A DNA stretch of 21,419 nucleotides. It comes from a virus. Made by a program: the position numbers and the translations under genes. The notes under the pieces are model-generated. The model saw only the letters and a program-made list of their open reading frames with translations, was not told the DNA's origin and ran no database searches. This document shows positions 559-12,763 of this stretch, piece by piece (the first letter of the stretch is position 1; every line of letters begins with the position of its first letter). The stretch is from IMG/VR virus record IMGVR_UViG_3300042313_000137, positions 1 through 21,419 of that record; one strand, 5' to 3'.

Positions 559-1985
559 TATAAACCTTTTAATTTTAATTGATGATAAGCCCAACCTTTT
601 CCATAAGCCATAAATTTTTCGTATTCGTAAAAATCTTCTTTTGTTTTTAATTGATGATATATCCAATTCTTTGCATAACCTTTTGCTTTTTGAATAATTT
701 GTAAATCTTTAAATGATGCTATTGATATTGCTTCGTGTAATTGTCGTTTATTCATTTTTTGCAATTCGATTATAATTAAATCTTCCTTTTCAATTTCTGA
801 CTTTTCAAATTGATAACCACAAGAAGGACATTCCATTATTCTAGAATGTAATAAATAATAACATTCTGGACATTCTTTAATTGGCGCTTCTCCTTCCTTT
901 TTTTCTTTTTTATCTAAACTCCAAAATCTATTTTCTTCCCAATATTTATGAGTTTTAATATTATTACCAAAATCTAAAATAGTAAATGTATTTTTTGTTT
1001 GTGTAACCCTTGATCCTCTACCTACCATTTGAAGGAATAAAGGTAAACTTTTTGTAGCTCTATACAATATAACTACTTCAATACTAGGACAATCAAAACC
1101 TGTTGTTAATATTCCATAATTAGAAAGTATAGCTCCTGGTGTTTCTTCAAACCATTTTAAAGTATCTTTTCGATCATTATCAGTCATATAACAATCAACG
1201 TGTTTAGATTGCAATCCTTTCTCTAAAAAACTTTCTACTAATTCTCGACTTGCATCTACATTTGGTGCAAATACTAAAGCCTTTTGATTAGGTGTCAATC
1301 TTTGATAATTGTCATAAACTCCATGAAATAATTTAATTTCACTAAATTTATCAGCCATAGATTTTTCGTCAAAATCACCTCCTTTTGTTTTTATTCCTTT
1401 TAAATTTATAGGAACTCCATAACTTTCAGGTGCTGATAAATTACCTTTTTTAATCAATTCAGGAGTATCAATAACCTGAACTATATCAGTATAAAATGTT
1501 TTTAAACTTAATTGTTTACCTTCTCTATGTGGTGTGGCTGTTGCACCTACTACATAAGTTTTAACATTTATAAAAGAAAATAAATTATCAAATATTGTTT
1601 TATGTGCTTCATCAATAATTATTAAATCTAGATCATTTATAAAAGAAATATAATCTTCTTTATTTAATCTTCTCATAATTGTTTGCACCATAGCAACGTG
1701 TAAATTATGATTTAAATCTATTTTGCAATTAGGTTTAATTTCATTTGCCTTTAAACCCATATTAGAAATTGATCCTGTTGATTGACTAAATAATTCTTTT
1801 CTATCTGTTATAATTAATATTTTTTTATTCTTATCAAATGCGTTTTTTGTCATAAAAGAAAACATAATTGTTTTTCCTGCTCCTGTGGGTGCGCAAAGAA
1901 TAATCTTTTTGTTTCCTTTACCAAATGATTTTTGAATTTCAATAATATATTTTTCTTGGTAATCTCTTAATTTTAATCCATCCAT
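558..1985 (-). CDS. DEAH-box superfamily 2 DNA helicase with zinc ribbon (UvsW-like)
   Basis: The 475-residue product is an ATP-dependent SF2 helicase. It has LRDYQ at 6-10 (Q-like motif), Walker A APTGAGKT at 32-39, DEAH at 125-128 and ATATP at 148-152. The second RecA-like lobe carries TTGFDCPS (motif V) and QMVGRGSR (motif VI arginine finger). After it come four cysteines at 372, 375, 386 and 389 in CxxC pairs, forming a zinc ribbon. The C-terminus carries a motif twice: WIYHQLK near 441-447 and WAYHQLK near 465-471. Phage relatives such as UvsW remodel forks and branched DNA. The ATG lies inside the last codons of the primase gene (13-base overlap), so the two are probably translated together. 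Confidence 0.9.
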   Translation of the reverse strand: MDGLKLRDYQEKYIIEIQKSFGKGNKKIILCAPTGAGKTIMFSFMTKNAFDKNKKILIITDRKELFSQSTGSISNMGLKANEIKPNCKIDLNHNLHVAMVQTIMRRLNKEDYISFINDLDLIIIDEAHKTIFDNLFSFINVKTYVVGATATPHREGKQLSLKTFYTDIVQVIDTPELIKKGNLSAPESYGVPINLKGIKTKGGDFDEKSMADKFSEIKLFHGVYDNYQRLTPNQKALVFAPNVDASRELVESFLEKGLQSKHVDCYMTDNDRKDTLKWFEETPGAILSNYGILTTGFDCPSIEVVILYRATKSLPLFLQMVGRGSRVTQTKNTFTILDFGNNIKTHKYWEENRFWSLDKKEKKEGEAPIKECPECYYLLHSRIMECPSCGYQFEKSEIEKEDLIIIELQKMNKRQLHEAISIASFKDLQIIQKAKGYAKNWIYHQLKTKEDFYEYEKFMAYGKGWAYHQLKLKGL

Positions 1986-4111
1986 GGTGCTGATTGTATT
2001 TGATTTGAATTTCCGTATTTTTCTTGTACTTTATATTTATAACCTTGTCTTGTACTAACAGAGTCGCCGAATAAATTCTTTAATTCAGTACCTAATTTTT
2101 TAAGTGATAAAATCTTTTGTTTTGAATTGCATTCTATTACTTCTTTTATATCGGTTGCTGTCATCATAGAACCTGCTCCACTTGTCGGTATATCAAAGAA
2201 TTTTAATATTAATTCACGTTCAAATGGTATTGTTTCAAATTCTCCTGAAACCTCCTTTAAAACGCTTATTTCATCTTTATTCAATTGCCATTCTTCACCG
2301 CTTGTATAAAGTCTATATAATTCCATAAATAATTCATCTTTATCAATAGAGTTATATAGTTCATGATTAATAGAAATAACCTCAACTGGTAAAATTCTAG
2401 TGTTTCCTGTTGGATCATTTATTACAGCCTTTTCATTTGTTGTTCCACCTAATAAAGCAAGTCTTTTAAAATCTTCATTATGTCTACCATAAGCAGCACG
2501 AAGTGAAAAGAAATTTTTTGAGGTTAATTCTTTAAATCTTTTTTCATCCTGTTTAGATTTTCCACCCATTTCATCATCCATAACAATCAATTTTTCACAC
2601 ATCAAAAGTTCATCATCTTTCCCCTTATCCATATTAGACTCTGCATAATAACATTGAAGTGCAGAGGGTAATAAACGTCTAAAAAATTCTGTTTTACCCG
2701 TATTTTGACCGCCTGTAAGACATAAAACTGAACGAGCAGGAAAACCTGAATAACAAGCAATAATAGATAATAACCATTTTTTTATAAATCTATTTTTAAT
2801 ATGTGTTTTTGATTCAATTGAATTACATATTGCTTCTACATTACCCGTTGTATTTCTCCATTTATTAGCTTCAATATATAATTGTATAGGATTATATTCA
2901 ATAGTACCCTCCGACATTATTATTCTTTGACATAAATCAAATGTTACTGCGTTATCATCAAAAGTCATACGAGCTTTTAAATACAAAGAATTAAAATGCT
3001 TATCTTCCATTTGTTCATTATTTATCTCATATTTTCTAGTTATTAGATTTTTTTTAATAACTGCTGTTTTATGAATATAATTTGAAACATTAATTATTAT
3101 GTTTTCAGTACCTCCTGAATTTCTAATATCAATATCTGAACGTTCATAAATTTCATCAACTATATCTTTTGCTTCTAATTCAGTTAAATTTTTATCATTT
3201 ATTAATAAATTAATAGACTCCGCCTTTGATAAATTTAAACGTTTATTTAATGCAATTTCTTTTATTTTATCATCTGAATTATATTTAGTTAAATCAGCTC
3301 CACCTTGTTTTAAATAATAATAAAATGTACCTACTGTTATTCCTTGACTTTTAGATTTTAAAAATACATTATAAGAATGATTACAAATATCAAATTCATA
3401 TTTATTTGAAAACATAGACATTTTATGAAAGTAATTCCTTCCATCTTCTCCAAAACCTTTAGCACATGAAAAACCAAAGTTTCTCCAATCTTCATAGTTT
3501 TCTAAAACATTACTTTGAACTTGGTTTAATAGTTCAGAAATATCTGTTTTAGGTATAATTAAAGCTAATGTATTTGCTTTTTTTATTTTTTCAACTTTAG
3601 TTTTTGCTTTCTTACTTTTTGCATTTACTATTATTTCAGAATCAAAAGATACAAATCTAGCACTCGCAACGTTTGAAGGTGCAGGATCTACTTCTATTCC
3701 AAATAAATTAAAATAATATTCTGATAACCATCTATAAGACTCTTTATGTTTAGTTGGATCAATCTTTACAATTACTGCAATACCTTTTCCACTTACTGAA
3801 TTAAAACAAGCATAGGTATAAGGATCATCTTTTAATAATGATTTGTCTGTAAAATAATCAATGTCAACACAAATAAAACCTGAATGTTTTTCAAGTTTTG
3901 ATTGAGTACGTTCATTAAATACTCCGCTAATTGTAACTGCAGGTAATAACTTTTTTAAATCATCACGCTTTTGTTTGTCTTGTTCAATTCTAACTTGCTG
4001 AATAGTTTCCCTCCAGTAACCATTTTTAACCCTAGAAATAAAATCATCAATTGACCCCCTTTCTAATTCTGTTTTTGTTTCATTTACTTTTTTCCAATAA
4101 CTAATTTGCAT
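1973..4111 (-). CDS. Primase-helicase: BT4734/VirE N-terminal domain plus VapE-like ATPase
   Basis: This 712-residue protein has three recognisable parts. Residues 50-165 resemble the BT4734/VirE_N primase-like domain, with an acidic VDID at 82-85 and SVSGKGIAV at 105-113. Residues 200-265 resemble the PriCT-2 primase C-terminal region (DWRNFGFSCAKG). Residues 440-630 form a virulence-associated-E type P-loop ATPase, with Walker A GGQNTGKT at 467-474 and Walker B LIVMDDE at 508-514. An Asn-Thr-Arg-Ile-Leu-Pro segment follows, in a position typical for these proteins. It probably combines primer synthesis with replicative unwinding. The ATG overlaps the stop of the small lipoprotein gene upstream, and a candidate origin lies just beyond. 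Domain limits are estimates by eye. Confidence 0.88.
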   Translation of the reverse strand: MQISYWKKVNETKTELERGSIDDFISRVKNGYWRETIQQVRIEQDKQKRDDLKKLLPAVTISGVFNERTQSKLEKHSGFICVDIDYFTDKSLLKDDPYTYACFNSVSGKGIAVIVKIDPTKHKESYRWLSEYYFNLFGIEVDPAPSNVASARFVSFDSEIIVNAKSKKAKTKVEKIKKANTLALIIPKTDISELLNQVQSNVLENYEDWRNFGFSCAKGFGEDGRNYFHKMSMFSNKYEFDICNHSYNVFLKSKSQGITVGTFYYYLKQGGADLTKYNSDDKIKEIALNKRLNLSKAESINLLINDKNLTELEAKDIVDEIYERSDIDIRNSGGTENIIINVSNYIHKTAVIKKNLITRKYEINNEQMEDKHFNSLYLKARMTFDDNAVTFDLCQRIIMSEGTIEYNPIQLYIEANKWRNTTGNVEAICNSIESKTHIKNRFIKKWLLSIIACYSGFPARSVLCLTGGQNTGKTEFFRRLLPSALQCYYAESNMDKGKDDELLMCEKLIVMDDEMGGKSKQDEKRFKELTSKNFFSLRAAYGRHNEDFKRLALLGGTTNEKAVINDPTGNTRILPVEVISINHELYNSIDKDELFMELYRLYTSGEEWQLNKDEISVLKEVSGEFETIPFERELILKFFDIPTSGAGSMMTATDIKEVIECNSKQKILSLKKLGTELKNLFGDSVSTRQGYKYKVQEKYGNSNQIQSAPWMD

Positions 4112-4280
4112 TTTGTAAAGATTTAATTTTTGGGTTATTCACTACTGTTAATGTCGTTCCATCATTTAAAACTGTTGTTTCAATTGTGTACGCTACATTT
4201 TTTAAAACCATTGGTTTGGTTTCTTTCTTATAACAACTAGATAAAGTTGTTAATACTACTACTACTACTACTTTTTTCAT
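4101..4280 (-). CDS. Small predicted lipoprotein (59 aa), first gene of the replication operon
   Basis: This short frame, read from ATG 4280-4278 to TAG 4103-4101, encodes 59 residues. It begins MKK, has a hydrophobic stretch of six valines, and then LTTLSSC, which fits a lipobox with Cys16 as the lipidated residue. The mature part is about 44 residues, polar, with no recognised domain. Its stop overlaps the primase start by 11 bases, which suggests coupled translation. The six valines are all GTA, giving a perfect 18-base trinucleotide repeat. The start codon sits directly against GGGGCAG, the last element of the structured leader. Its function is unknown; superinfection exclusion or envelope roles are known for other phage lipoproteins, but nothing here proves one. 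Confidence 0.66.
   Translation of the reverse strand: MKKVVVVVVLTTLSSCYKKETKPMVLKNVAYTIETTVLNDGTTLTVVNNPKIKSLQNAN
4255..4272 (-). repeat. Trinucleotide repeat, six GTA codons
   Basis: On the minus strand the signal-peptide core of the 59-residue lipoprotein is encoded by six consecutive GTA triplets. Slippage would change the length of the hydrophobic core in steps of one valine without breaking the frame. Confidence 0.85.
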
Positions 4281-4380
4281 CTGCCCCTATTTAAACTGCG
4301 AAAAGCTTGTCAATTTTCGGAGGGCAGTCCTACTAATTAACAAGCTTTTCTAATAATTTCTTTATATCTCTGCCCTGATA
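4281..4380 (-). promoter_or_regulatory. Structured 5' leader with interleaved and alternative pairings (candidate riboregulator)
   Basis: The transcript expected from the promoter at 4387-4416 would start near 4380 and has about 100 nt before the lipoprotein start. In RNA order it holds AGGGCAG (4376-4370), GAAAAGCUUGU (4350-4340), CUGCCCU (4327-4321), ACAAGCUUUUC (4310-4300) and GGGGCAG (4287-4281, touching the AUG). The first and third pair perfectly over 7 bp and the second and fourth over 11 bp. The order is interleaved, as in a pseudoknot. The third element can instead pair over 6 bp with the element at the start codon. A local CGAAAA/UUUUCG hairpin (4319-4314 with 4304-4299) competes with the 11-bp helix. 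This looks like a switch controlling translation, but no known riboswitch class was recognised. Confidence 0.5.
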
Positions 4381-4400
4381 TGTTTACAAATATAAACATA
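4379..4400. promoter_or_regulatory. Palindromic operator candidate over the promoter
   Basis: Perfect 8-bp arms, TATGTTTA (4379-4386) and TAAACATA (4393-4400), are separated by six bases. The palindrome is centred on the TATATTTG promoter element. A dimeric repressor bound here would block RNA polymerase. No obvious repressor gene was seen in the window. Confidence 0.5.
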
Positions 4401-4416: not shown

Positions 4417-4689
4417 TCATATTTTAAAAAATAATTAAAAATCAAAGGTAAAAGTATAAAATCAAAGGTAAAAACAGTAAAATCAAAGGTAAAAATAATC
4501 TATCCTTCTACGCTTTTCATCAATGGTGGTGTAACTTTCAATACTTTGTCAAAGGATTCAAAGATAAAAATTATAAATTTATATAGAATTAATAATTTAT
4601 TTATTAATATATTTTATTTTATTTTATTTTCAATTGAAAGTTTAAAAGTATATGTTTTTACCTTTGATTTTTTGTTAATTACTTAATAA
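4417..4689. other. Gene-free control region
   Basis: With the leader and promoter this forms the only gene-free stretch longer than 300 bases (4281-4689). I found no credible coding frame in it on either strand. It holds the repeat array and the AT-rich tract described separately. The remaining part, about 4495-4548, shows no motif I recognise. Confidence 0.6.
4438..4668. repeat. Iteron-like repeats (ATCAAAGGTAAAA) with adjoining AT-rich tract, candidate replication origin
   Basis: Three perfect direct copies of ATCAAAGGTAAAA lie at 4441-4453, 4461-4473 and 4482-4494. They are spaced 20 and 21 bases apart, so they sit on the same helix face. A one-mismatch copy, TCAAAGATAAAAA, lies at 4558-4570, and an inverted perfect copy, TTTTTACCTTTGAT, at 4655-4668. 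Between these last two lies a stretch that is nearly all A and T (about 4561-4630), suited to easy unwinding. The block sits in the largest gene-free gap, just upstream of the primase-helicase operon. Direct repeats plus an AT-rich element are the usual layout of iteron origins. An operator array for a transcription factor is the alternative. Confidence 0.55.
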
Positions 4690-4887
4690 TTAGTTATTTA
4701 TGAATTTTCTATCCTTTGACATTTTACGTTTTTTCACTCTTTTTTTTCTGCTATCTCTAATTTTCTGCTGTTCGTTCCTACTTTTTTGATCAAATTGTAG
4801 CATTGTTTTTTGTTGTTGGACTAAATTAGTTTCGTGGACGCTGTATGATCTGCAGGAAAATAGTAGTAAAATTAAAAGGTATTTCAT
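4690..4887 (-). CDS. Small basic predicted lipoprotein (65 aa)
   Basis: The product begins MKYLLILLLFSC, a short lipoprotein signal peptide with lipobox-like LLFSC and Cys12 as the probable lipidated residue. The mature part is Gln-rich around 24-40, probably helical, and very basic at residues 45-62 (RDSRKKRVKKRKMSKDRK). No domain is recognised. It follows the methyltransferase terminator by only about 12 bases and no promoter is visible between, so it would depend on read-through. Its stop borders the candidate origin region. An outer-membrane spanin subunit or an exclusion lipoprotein are possible roles, but only the signal peptide supports them. The ATG is the sole reasonable start. Confidence 0.65.
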   Translation of the reverse strand: MKYLLILLLFSCRSYSVHETNLVQQQKTMLQFDQKSRNEQQKIRDSRKKRVKKRKMSKDRKFINN

Positions 4888-12527: not shown

Positions 12528-12763
12528 TATATAAATGGATTTTCAATTATTTTTGGCTCGTATATACTCAAAGATAAGTCTTTTATAAATATCAATTCTG
12601 AAGGACATTCGTCTAAATACCATAAACCAAGACATTGATAGTATTCAACTTCACTTATTACGAAATTCAAGTTTACATCCTCTATTGGATTGAAAAAACC
12701 ATCCGTTTCAAATTCTTTTCCTATTAATATATCTTTCTGTAATTCTGTTATTATAGCTATCAT
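12527..12763 (-). CDS. Hypothetical acidic protein (78 aa)
   Basis: I do not recognise this 78-residue protein. It is acidic and appears mostly beta (NLNFVISEVEYYQCLGLWYL, then ELIFIKDLSLSIYEPKII), without a signal peptide or membrane segment. It overlaps the upstream concanavalin-like gene as ATGA and the GAF-like gene as TAATG. The position between tail genes and lysis genes suggests either a small virion part, a fibre chaperone or a lysis modulator. Tail-fibre chaperones are often encoded right after the fibre gene, so this would be the first idea to test. Confidence 0.65.
   Translation of the reverse strand: MIAIITELQKDILIGKEFETDGFFNPIEDVNLNFVISEVEYYQCLGLWYLDECPSELIFIKDLSLSIYEPKIIENPFI

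Follow-up and report, generated by a model that had tools for sequence, protein, structure and literature searches.

Loop-pairing leaders in plasmids and phages

The replication-operon leader of phage P4, a satellite with lysogeny, carries the CI RNA (seqA-seqB-seqC), in which a complementary element lies between two direct copies and which works through premature termination. Plasmid incompatibility and prophage immunity offer known cases of selection on loop specificity; to our knowledge, none is known for virulent phages. In ColIb-P9, a comparable pseudoknot is the switch for repZ translation (PMC10724649, citing Asano and Mizobuchi 1998). According to the same paper, which also includes IncK data, a hairpin loop of the ColIb-P9/IncI-alpha repZ leader pairs near the start of the replication gene, the loop letters set the specificity, and the competitor is an antisense Inc RNA. 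Among phage RNAs, c4 of P1 and P7 (RF01695) has complementary loops and a target around a ribosome site (PMC12197685), and HK022 putRNA, which suppresses termination, forms two hairpins where an early transcript begins (PMC9378689).

Here, we describe a leader found in a viral stretch of 21,419 nucleotides (IMG/VR record IMGVR_UViG_3300042313_000137, 21.4 kb, hereafter the window). It precedes, on the minus strand, a 59-amino-acid lipoprotein-like gene from the ORF list (4101 to 4280, without a Pfam match) and a VapE/PriCT_2 primase-helicase gene (1973 to 4111; Pfam PF05272, PF08707, and PF08800), which overlap by 11 bases. As in the repZ leader, a hairpin loop pairs near the start of the gene, the loop letters would set specificity, and replication would be controlled; a co-varying third copy of the loop sequence lies at the start codon. 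In the window, the lipoprotein ORF comes first and overlaps the primase gene. However, the competing loop here belongs to a hairpin of the same molecule, many of the phage leaders would use a terminator instead, and the carrier looks like a lytic phage and is not a plasmid. An antisense promoter on the opposite strand is not supported by a search for the consensus box alone: TAnnTTTG boxes were depleted on that strand near leaders (0.17 versus 0.97 per kb) and occurred at only 2 of 41.

Like P4 CI, the leader has a loop that matches a direct copy on either side of it (in the window and about half of the class I leaders described below), but HP1, the first hairpin, presents the first copy in its loop, and the phages look virulent. 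It is likewise a phage RNA with complementary loops and a target around a ribosome site, as c4 is; in contrast to c4, it has internal loop-loop pairing and occurs in another host group and phage type. There was no RF01695 match in the window, the window leader, or eight other leader loci, and no antirepressor (ant) gene among the first genes downstream of leaders (replication genes, endonucleases, and small ORFs). With put it has in common the two hairpins at the 5' end, while neither kissing nor hypervariable loops are described for put. No Rfam 15 family matched the window or the eight other loci at the gathering score, nor the window leader at relaxed thresholds. Membership in any known family is not supported, and the closest logic is that of the repZ leader, as described in PMC10724649. 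We found no earlier description of this leader form in the open-access literature, although one may exist elsewhere; the original prediction knew of no phage riboregulator of such a form. Altogether, these leaders appear to make up a widespread and as yet undescribed RNA family heading replication operons of Bacteroidota phages.

Structure and covariation of the leader

The predicted transcript start lies 5 nt after a putative promoter -7 box of the Bacteroidota type TAnnTTTG (TATATTTG, 4387 to 4394, minus strand, like all the following parts). From there, the leader comprises a 5' hairpin (HP1, AUAUC[AGGGCAGA]GAUAU, 4364 to 4381), an A-rich linker (AAAGAAATTATTA, 4351 to 4363), and a second hairpin with the tip AGUAGG[ACUGCCCU]CCGAAA (HP2, 4300 to 4350), backed by covariation, G-U counts, and fold energies. 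The HP2 helix joins 4350-4335 with 4315-4300 through 16 pairs, one of them G-U, at about -21 kcal/mol with its loop, and has an internal loop AGUA/GAA, which resembles a loop E in sequence, with GG/CC under the apical loop. The U-tract after it is poor in the window and good in most relatives. The loop of HP1 (L1, AGGGCAG, 4370 to 4376) kisses the apical loop of HP2 (L2, CTGCCCT, 4321 to 4327), a pairing formed in 100% of the 16-sequence class I alignment. A third copy, GGGCAG (L3, 4281 to 4286), abuts the ATG at 4280, and L1-type copies near the start codon are also present in other class I leaders. From the alignment and computed duplexes, the partner of L2 can be either L1 or L3, with identical energies in the window (L1:L2 = L3:L2 = -11.7 kcal/mol). 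In the whole 21.4 kb, L1, L2, and L3 are the only three occurrences of GGGCAG or its complement. Of 200 shuffles of the 124-nt leader, 199 folded less well than the leader itself (z -2.3).

The original prediction had named these segments from the letters of the window as interleaved helices forming a pseudoknot, one of 7 and one of 11 bp, and all of them are on the minus strand where it had located them (AGGGCAG at 4376-4370, CTGCCCT at 4327-4321, and GGGCAG at 4286-4281). Both helices are real and covary, but the longer one has 16 pairs with one G-U. It had also been missed that AGGGCAG sits in a hairpin loop itself, as does CTGCCC at the tip of the long hairpin; with the 5' strand of the presumed pseudoknot in the HP1 loop and its partner in the tip loop of HP2, this is an intramolecular kissing-loop leader and not a simple pseudoknot. 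A local CGAAAA/TTTTCG hairpin proposed as a competitor of the long helix does exist, but at -1.6 versus -21.2 kcal/mol for HP2 it does not compete.

Homologs of the primase (65% identical) were found in seven viral loci, and leaders with the same layout and a different sequence lie upstream of the operon in L003, L006, L007, and L009, with none in L004 and L005. More leaders were added by sequence-pattern searches. A sequence-blind scan anchored on promoter boxes (score ≥20) returned 46 leaders among 6,970 sites and none in dinucleotide shuffles. In total, 43 distinct leaders were analyzed, with HP1 mostly starting 4 to 7 nt after a TAnnTTTG-type box; these counts include related sequences, and both promoters and transcript starts are predicted. 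Class I was defined by the AGUAGG...CCGAAA tip, and other classes have the same layout with unrelated, complementary loops (e.g., GUGAGAUG, GUGGAACG, and CAGCGAC). Compared with the conserved ligand-binding core that a metabolite riboswitch would have, short conserved elements (the linker and AGUA/GAA) are found within class I, the internal loop being replaced in other classes, where a AAAGAAATTATT-like linker nevertheless recurs beside unrelated loops. This linker was part of one search pattern, yet it is also present in L003, L006, and L007, which were found by primase homology. The distance from the HP2 base to its loop is constant in most leaders (21 to 23 nt), and a geometry test of linker length against HP2 length gave no support for a correlation. 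Five contigs (L010, L146, L193, L219, and L333) carry two leaders each, with different loops that do not cross-pair.

Covariation across homologous leaders was the check proposed with the original prediction, and compensatory changes were abundant: the class I alignment of 16 sequences had 61 compensatory cells versus 17.4 in shuffles, with 94.7% of cells paired and double changes at 17 of 27 pairs. These affect 5 of 5 stem pairs in HP1, 10 of 14 in HP2, and two of the six L1-L2 loop pairs, all six of which form in every aligned sequence. Sliding the partner by one column lowered pairing to 49 to 55%, and it collapsed for slides of one to three columns. Conservation of the loop CTG and of scaffold letters is biased, because the patterns that fetched part of the loci fixed them; none of the patterns included HP1, the third copy, or the U-tract, and the primase-homology loci are free of this bias. 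HP1, HP2, and the kissing loops of a structured leader RNA are thus strongly supported by comparative analysis, and a simple terminator or chance repeats are ruled out by the covariation and the shuffles.

We also considered that the conserved unit might be DNA, such as half-sites of an operator or hairpins of a single-stranded origin close to an iteron origin, given that iteron-like repeats lie upstream of the promoter and that the three copies could be protein sites. However, with the register set by Watson-Crick pairs only, the oppositions in HP2 included 50 G-U and no A-C, an asymmetry indicating that selection acts on the RNA of the minus strand. The fixed place at the transcript start, the U-tracts, and the conservation of the linker on one strand also argue against a DNA-level element, which we consider very improbable.

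Loop evolution and possible outputs

Loop letters change several times faster (about fivefold) than the rest of the leader. Comparing the mumin leader with that of filifjonk gave differences at 4 of the 16 loop positions and at 5 of the remaining 79; for L003 versus L007, the counts are 4 of 14 in the loops and 2 of 68 outside them, with the same trend between L021 and L022. Pooling the three close pairs, and with the loop count of the third adjusted by eye from 3 to 4, changes amount to 12/46 in loops versus 13/213 elsewhere (P 0.0002), with complementarity kept. Moreover, a change from GUGGAA to GUGAGA, each time mirrored by the partner loop, is found in three unrelated scaffolds (L003/L007, L021/L022, and L360 12700/L361 1540). 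Mumin and filifjonk have the loop types GUGGAACG and GUGAGACG, respectively. Pairing across loop types would reach only -4 to -5 kcal/mol, compared to about -11.5 kcal/mol for matched loops (computed values). That the loops change fast and yet always match suggests selection on their specificity. Neutral drift under complementarity would be expected if the leader were purely a cis device, with the kiss serving as a structural clamp or as a timer, to be read by RNA polymerase, by some protein of the phage, or by a scaffold-binding host factor. Such a device would fit the conserved scaffold (linker, AGUA/GAA internal loop, and the 21- to 23-nt spacing of most leaders) but not the excess of loop changes or the same exchange in three scaffolds; we regard it as an unlikely explanation, albeit one that deserves serious attention.

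Of 26 distinct class I leaders, 12 repeat the HP1 loop sequence immediately ahead of the start codon, no more than 45 nt past HP2, versus 0.16 expected by shuffling and 0 of 510 loop-swapped controls. In L312, a close relative of the window, GUG replaces the GGG of L1 and L3, and CAC the CCC of L2; all three segments change together between phages, which strongly supports that the CTGCCC loop can pair with either the HP1 loop or the start-codon copy but not both. The U-tracts are poorer in leaders with the third copy than in those lacking it (P 0.004 and 0.0001, values that ignore relatedness). The stronger U-tracts in the latter suggest two interchangeable outputs, start-codon masking (translation) and transcription termination, the window leader being in the masking group. 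The terminator-like U-tract that HP2 has in most members, together with the hypervariable loops, speaks against processive antitermination of the put type, in which a two-hairpin RNA binds RNA polymerase so that later terminators are ignored. An early transcript that opens directly with two hairpins does recall putL (PMC9378689); loop-loop pairing forms no part of putRNA as described, and we hold this reading to be improbable.

A regulatory role of the leader is likely from the comparative data. Our preferred model, in which we have somewhat better than even confidence, is a kissing-loop RNA that sets replication-gene expression through the alternative partners of the HP2 loop and possibly senses itself in trans. 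HP1 and HP2 form at the 5' end of the replication transcript, and their kissing is the pairing evidenced by covariation; the HP2 loop has partners of equal strength, that in HP1 leaving the leader closed on itself. In leaders with a third copy, like that of the window, the HP2 loop would pair with L3 instead and cover the first gene's ribosome site, while in the others HP2 and its U-tract would act as an attenuator whose folding is delayed or prevented by the HP1 kiss. Expression of the replication genes would be set by the competition of L1 and L3 or of kiss and terminator, and by masking or attenuating the first gene the RNA would thus determine the amount of replication protein. The L3:L2 pairing may repress or activate, since the predicted structure fits either direction. 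The absence of the third copy from half of the class I leaders counts against this mechanism. As for the RNA switch announced by the original prediction, the structured leader stands firmly on covariation, and a switch between the pairings, in either direction and in response to some signal, is presumed.

The least certain steps concern pairing in trans, which would be possible because terminated or free leader RNAs carry identical loops. Rising leader RNA might pair with nascent transcripts and shift them towards the off state, a self-sensing brake limited to phages of matching loop type. Trans sensing is argued from complementarity and is more speculative; there are no further copies of the loop sequence in the 21.4-kb window as trans targets, which counts against it, and homotypic RNA sensing, though the idea we prefer, is unproven. 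Broader still, and possible although on the doubtful side, is a self-recognition RNA code in lytic phages, by which replication-operon leaders recognize their own copies through hypervariable complementary loops and selection repeatedly switches the loop types, as with the GUGGAA to GUGAGA change of the three scaffolds. If true, replication would be adjusted, or a co-infecting phage of matching loop type affected. Fold and pairing are retained across unrelated-looking phages from one host group despite fast-changing pairing letters. This points to an RNA switch, as yet undescribed, that controls DNA replication of the phage and in which one leader would join the loop-pairing logic of plasmid copy control with two interchangeable outputs.

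Carriers and genomic surroundings

The model R1 gave about 47 credible matches in viral loci. Across 395 Bacteroidota genomes, 2 scored and L356 only kept the full layout; the matches L354 and L357, from bacterial genomes, kept the terminator-like stem alone and were excluded from the counts. No tyrosine integrase (PF00589) was detected in 28 leader-bearing records, some of them fragments, with 14 of 14 controls positive. Cultured Flavobacterium carriers are known too: 46 sequenced records of LMO6 and LMO9 phages matched the mumin leader region, and of the two phages examined, mumin6-1 has the leader ahead of a helicase and a VapE protein, and filifjonk9-1 has it ahead of a primase. These phages are described as virulent by their authors (PMC7077304). 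Since carriers of two loop types are in culture on the same two hosts, strains LMO6 and LMO9 of Flavobacterium, the model is directly testable. A lysogenic immunity RNA like P4 CI or the c4 RNA of P1/P7 would account for a complementary loop lying between direct copies in the leader of a replication operon and for the loop-type specificity. However, the absence of integrases from the 28 records, the single clear match in 395 Bacteroidota genomes, and the virulent carriers, together with the lack of RF01695 matches, disfavor it and make it distinctly improbable. In mumin6-1 (L360), a second, weaker candidate leader (11665, score 17.7) precedes the endonuclease gene gp034, the first being at 12700.

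Genes behind the leaders are for the most part replication genes or homing endonucleases. First genes encode VapE primase, helicase, DUF3987, DUF6291, and ParB-methylase fusions, and others HNH (NUMOD4) or GIY-YIG endonucleases and small ORFs. HNH (NUMOD4) ORFs directly follow the leader in L006, L010, L012, L013, L346, and L353, and GIY-YIG or T5orf172 ORFs in L177, L345, and L356. HNH genes of distinct phages are preceded by near-identical leaders, which looks as though leader and endonuclease moved as one unit.

Just upstream of the promoter, the AT-rich DNA of the window contains iteron-like repeats (TCAAAGGTAAAA) at 4438-4497, 4558-4574, and 4655-4671, three of them spaced 20 to 21 nt, one diverged, and one an exact inverted copy. 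Relatives have CCCTATACC-type repeats at the matching place, and this region is probably a replication origin. On its far side lies a second small lipoprotein-like ORF (4690-4887).
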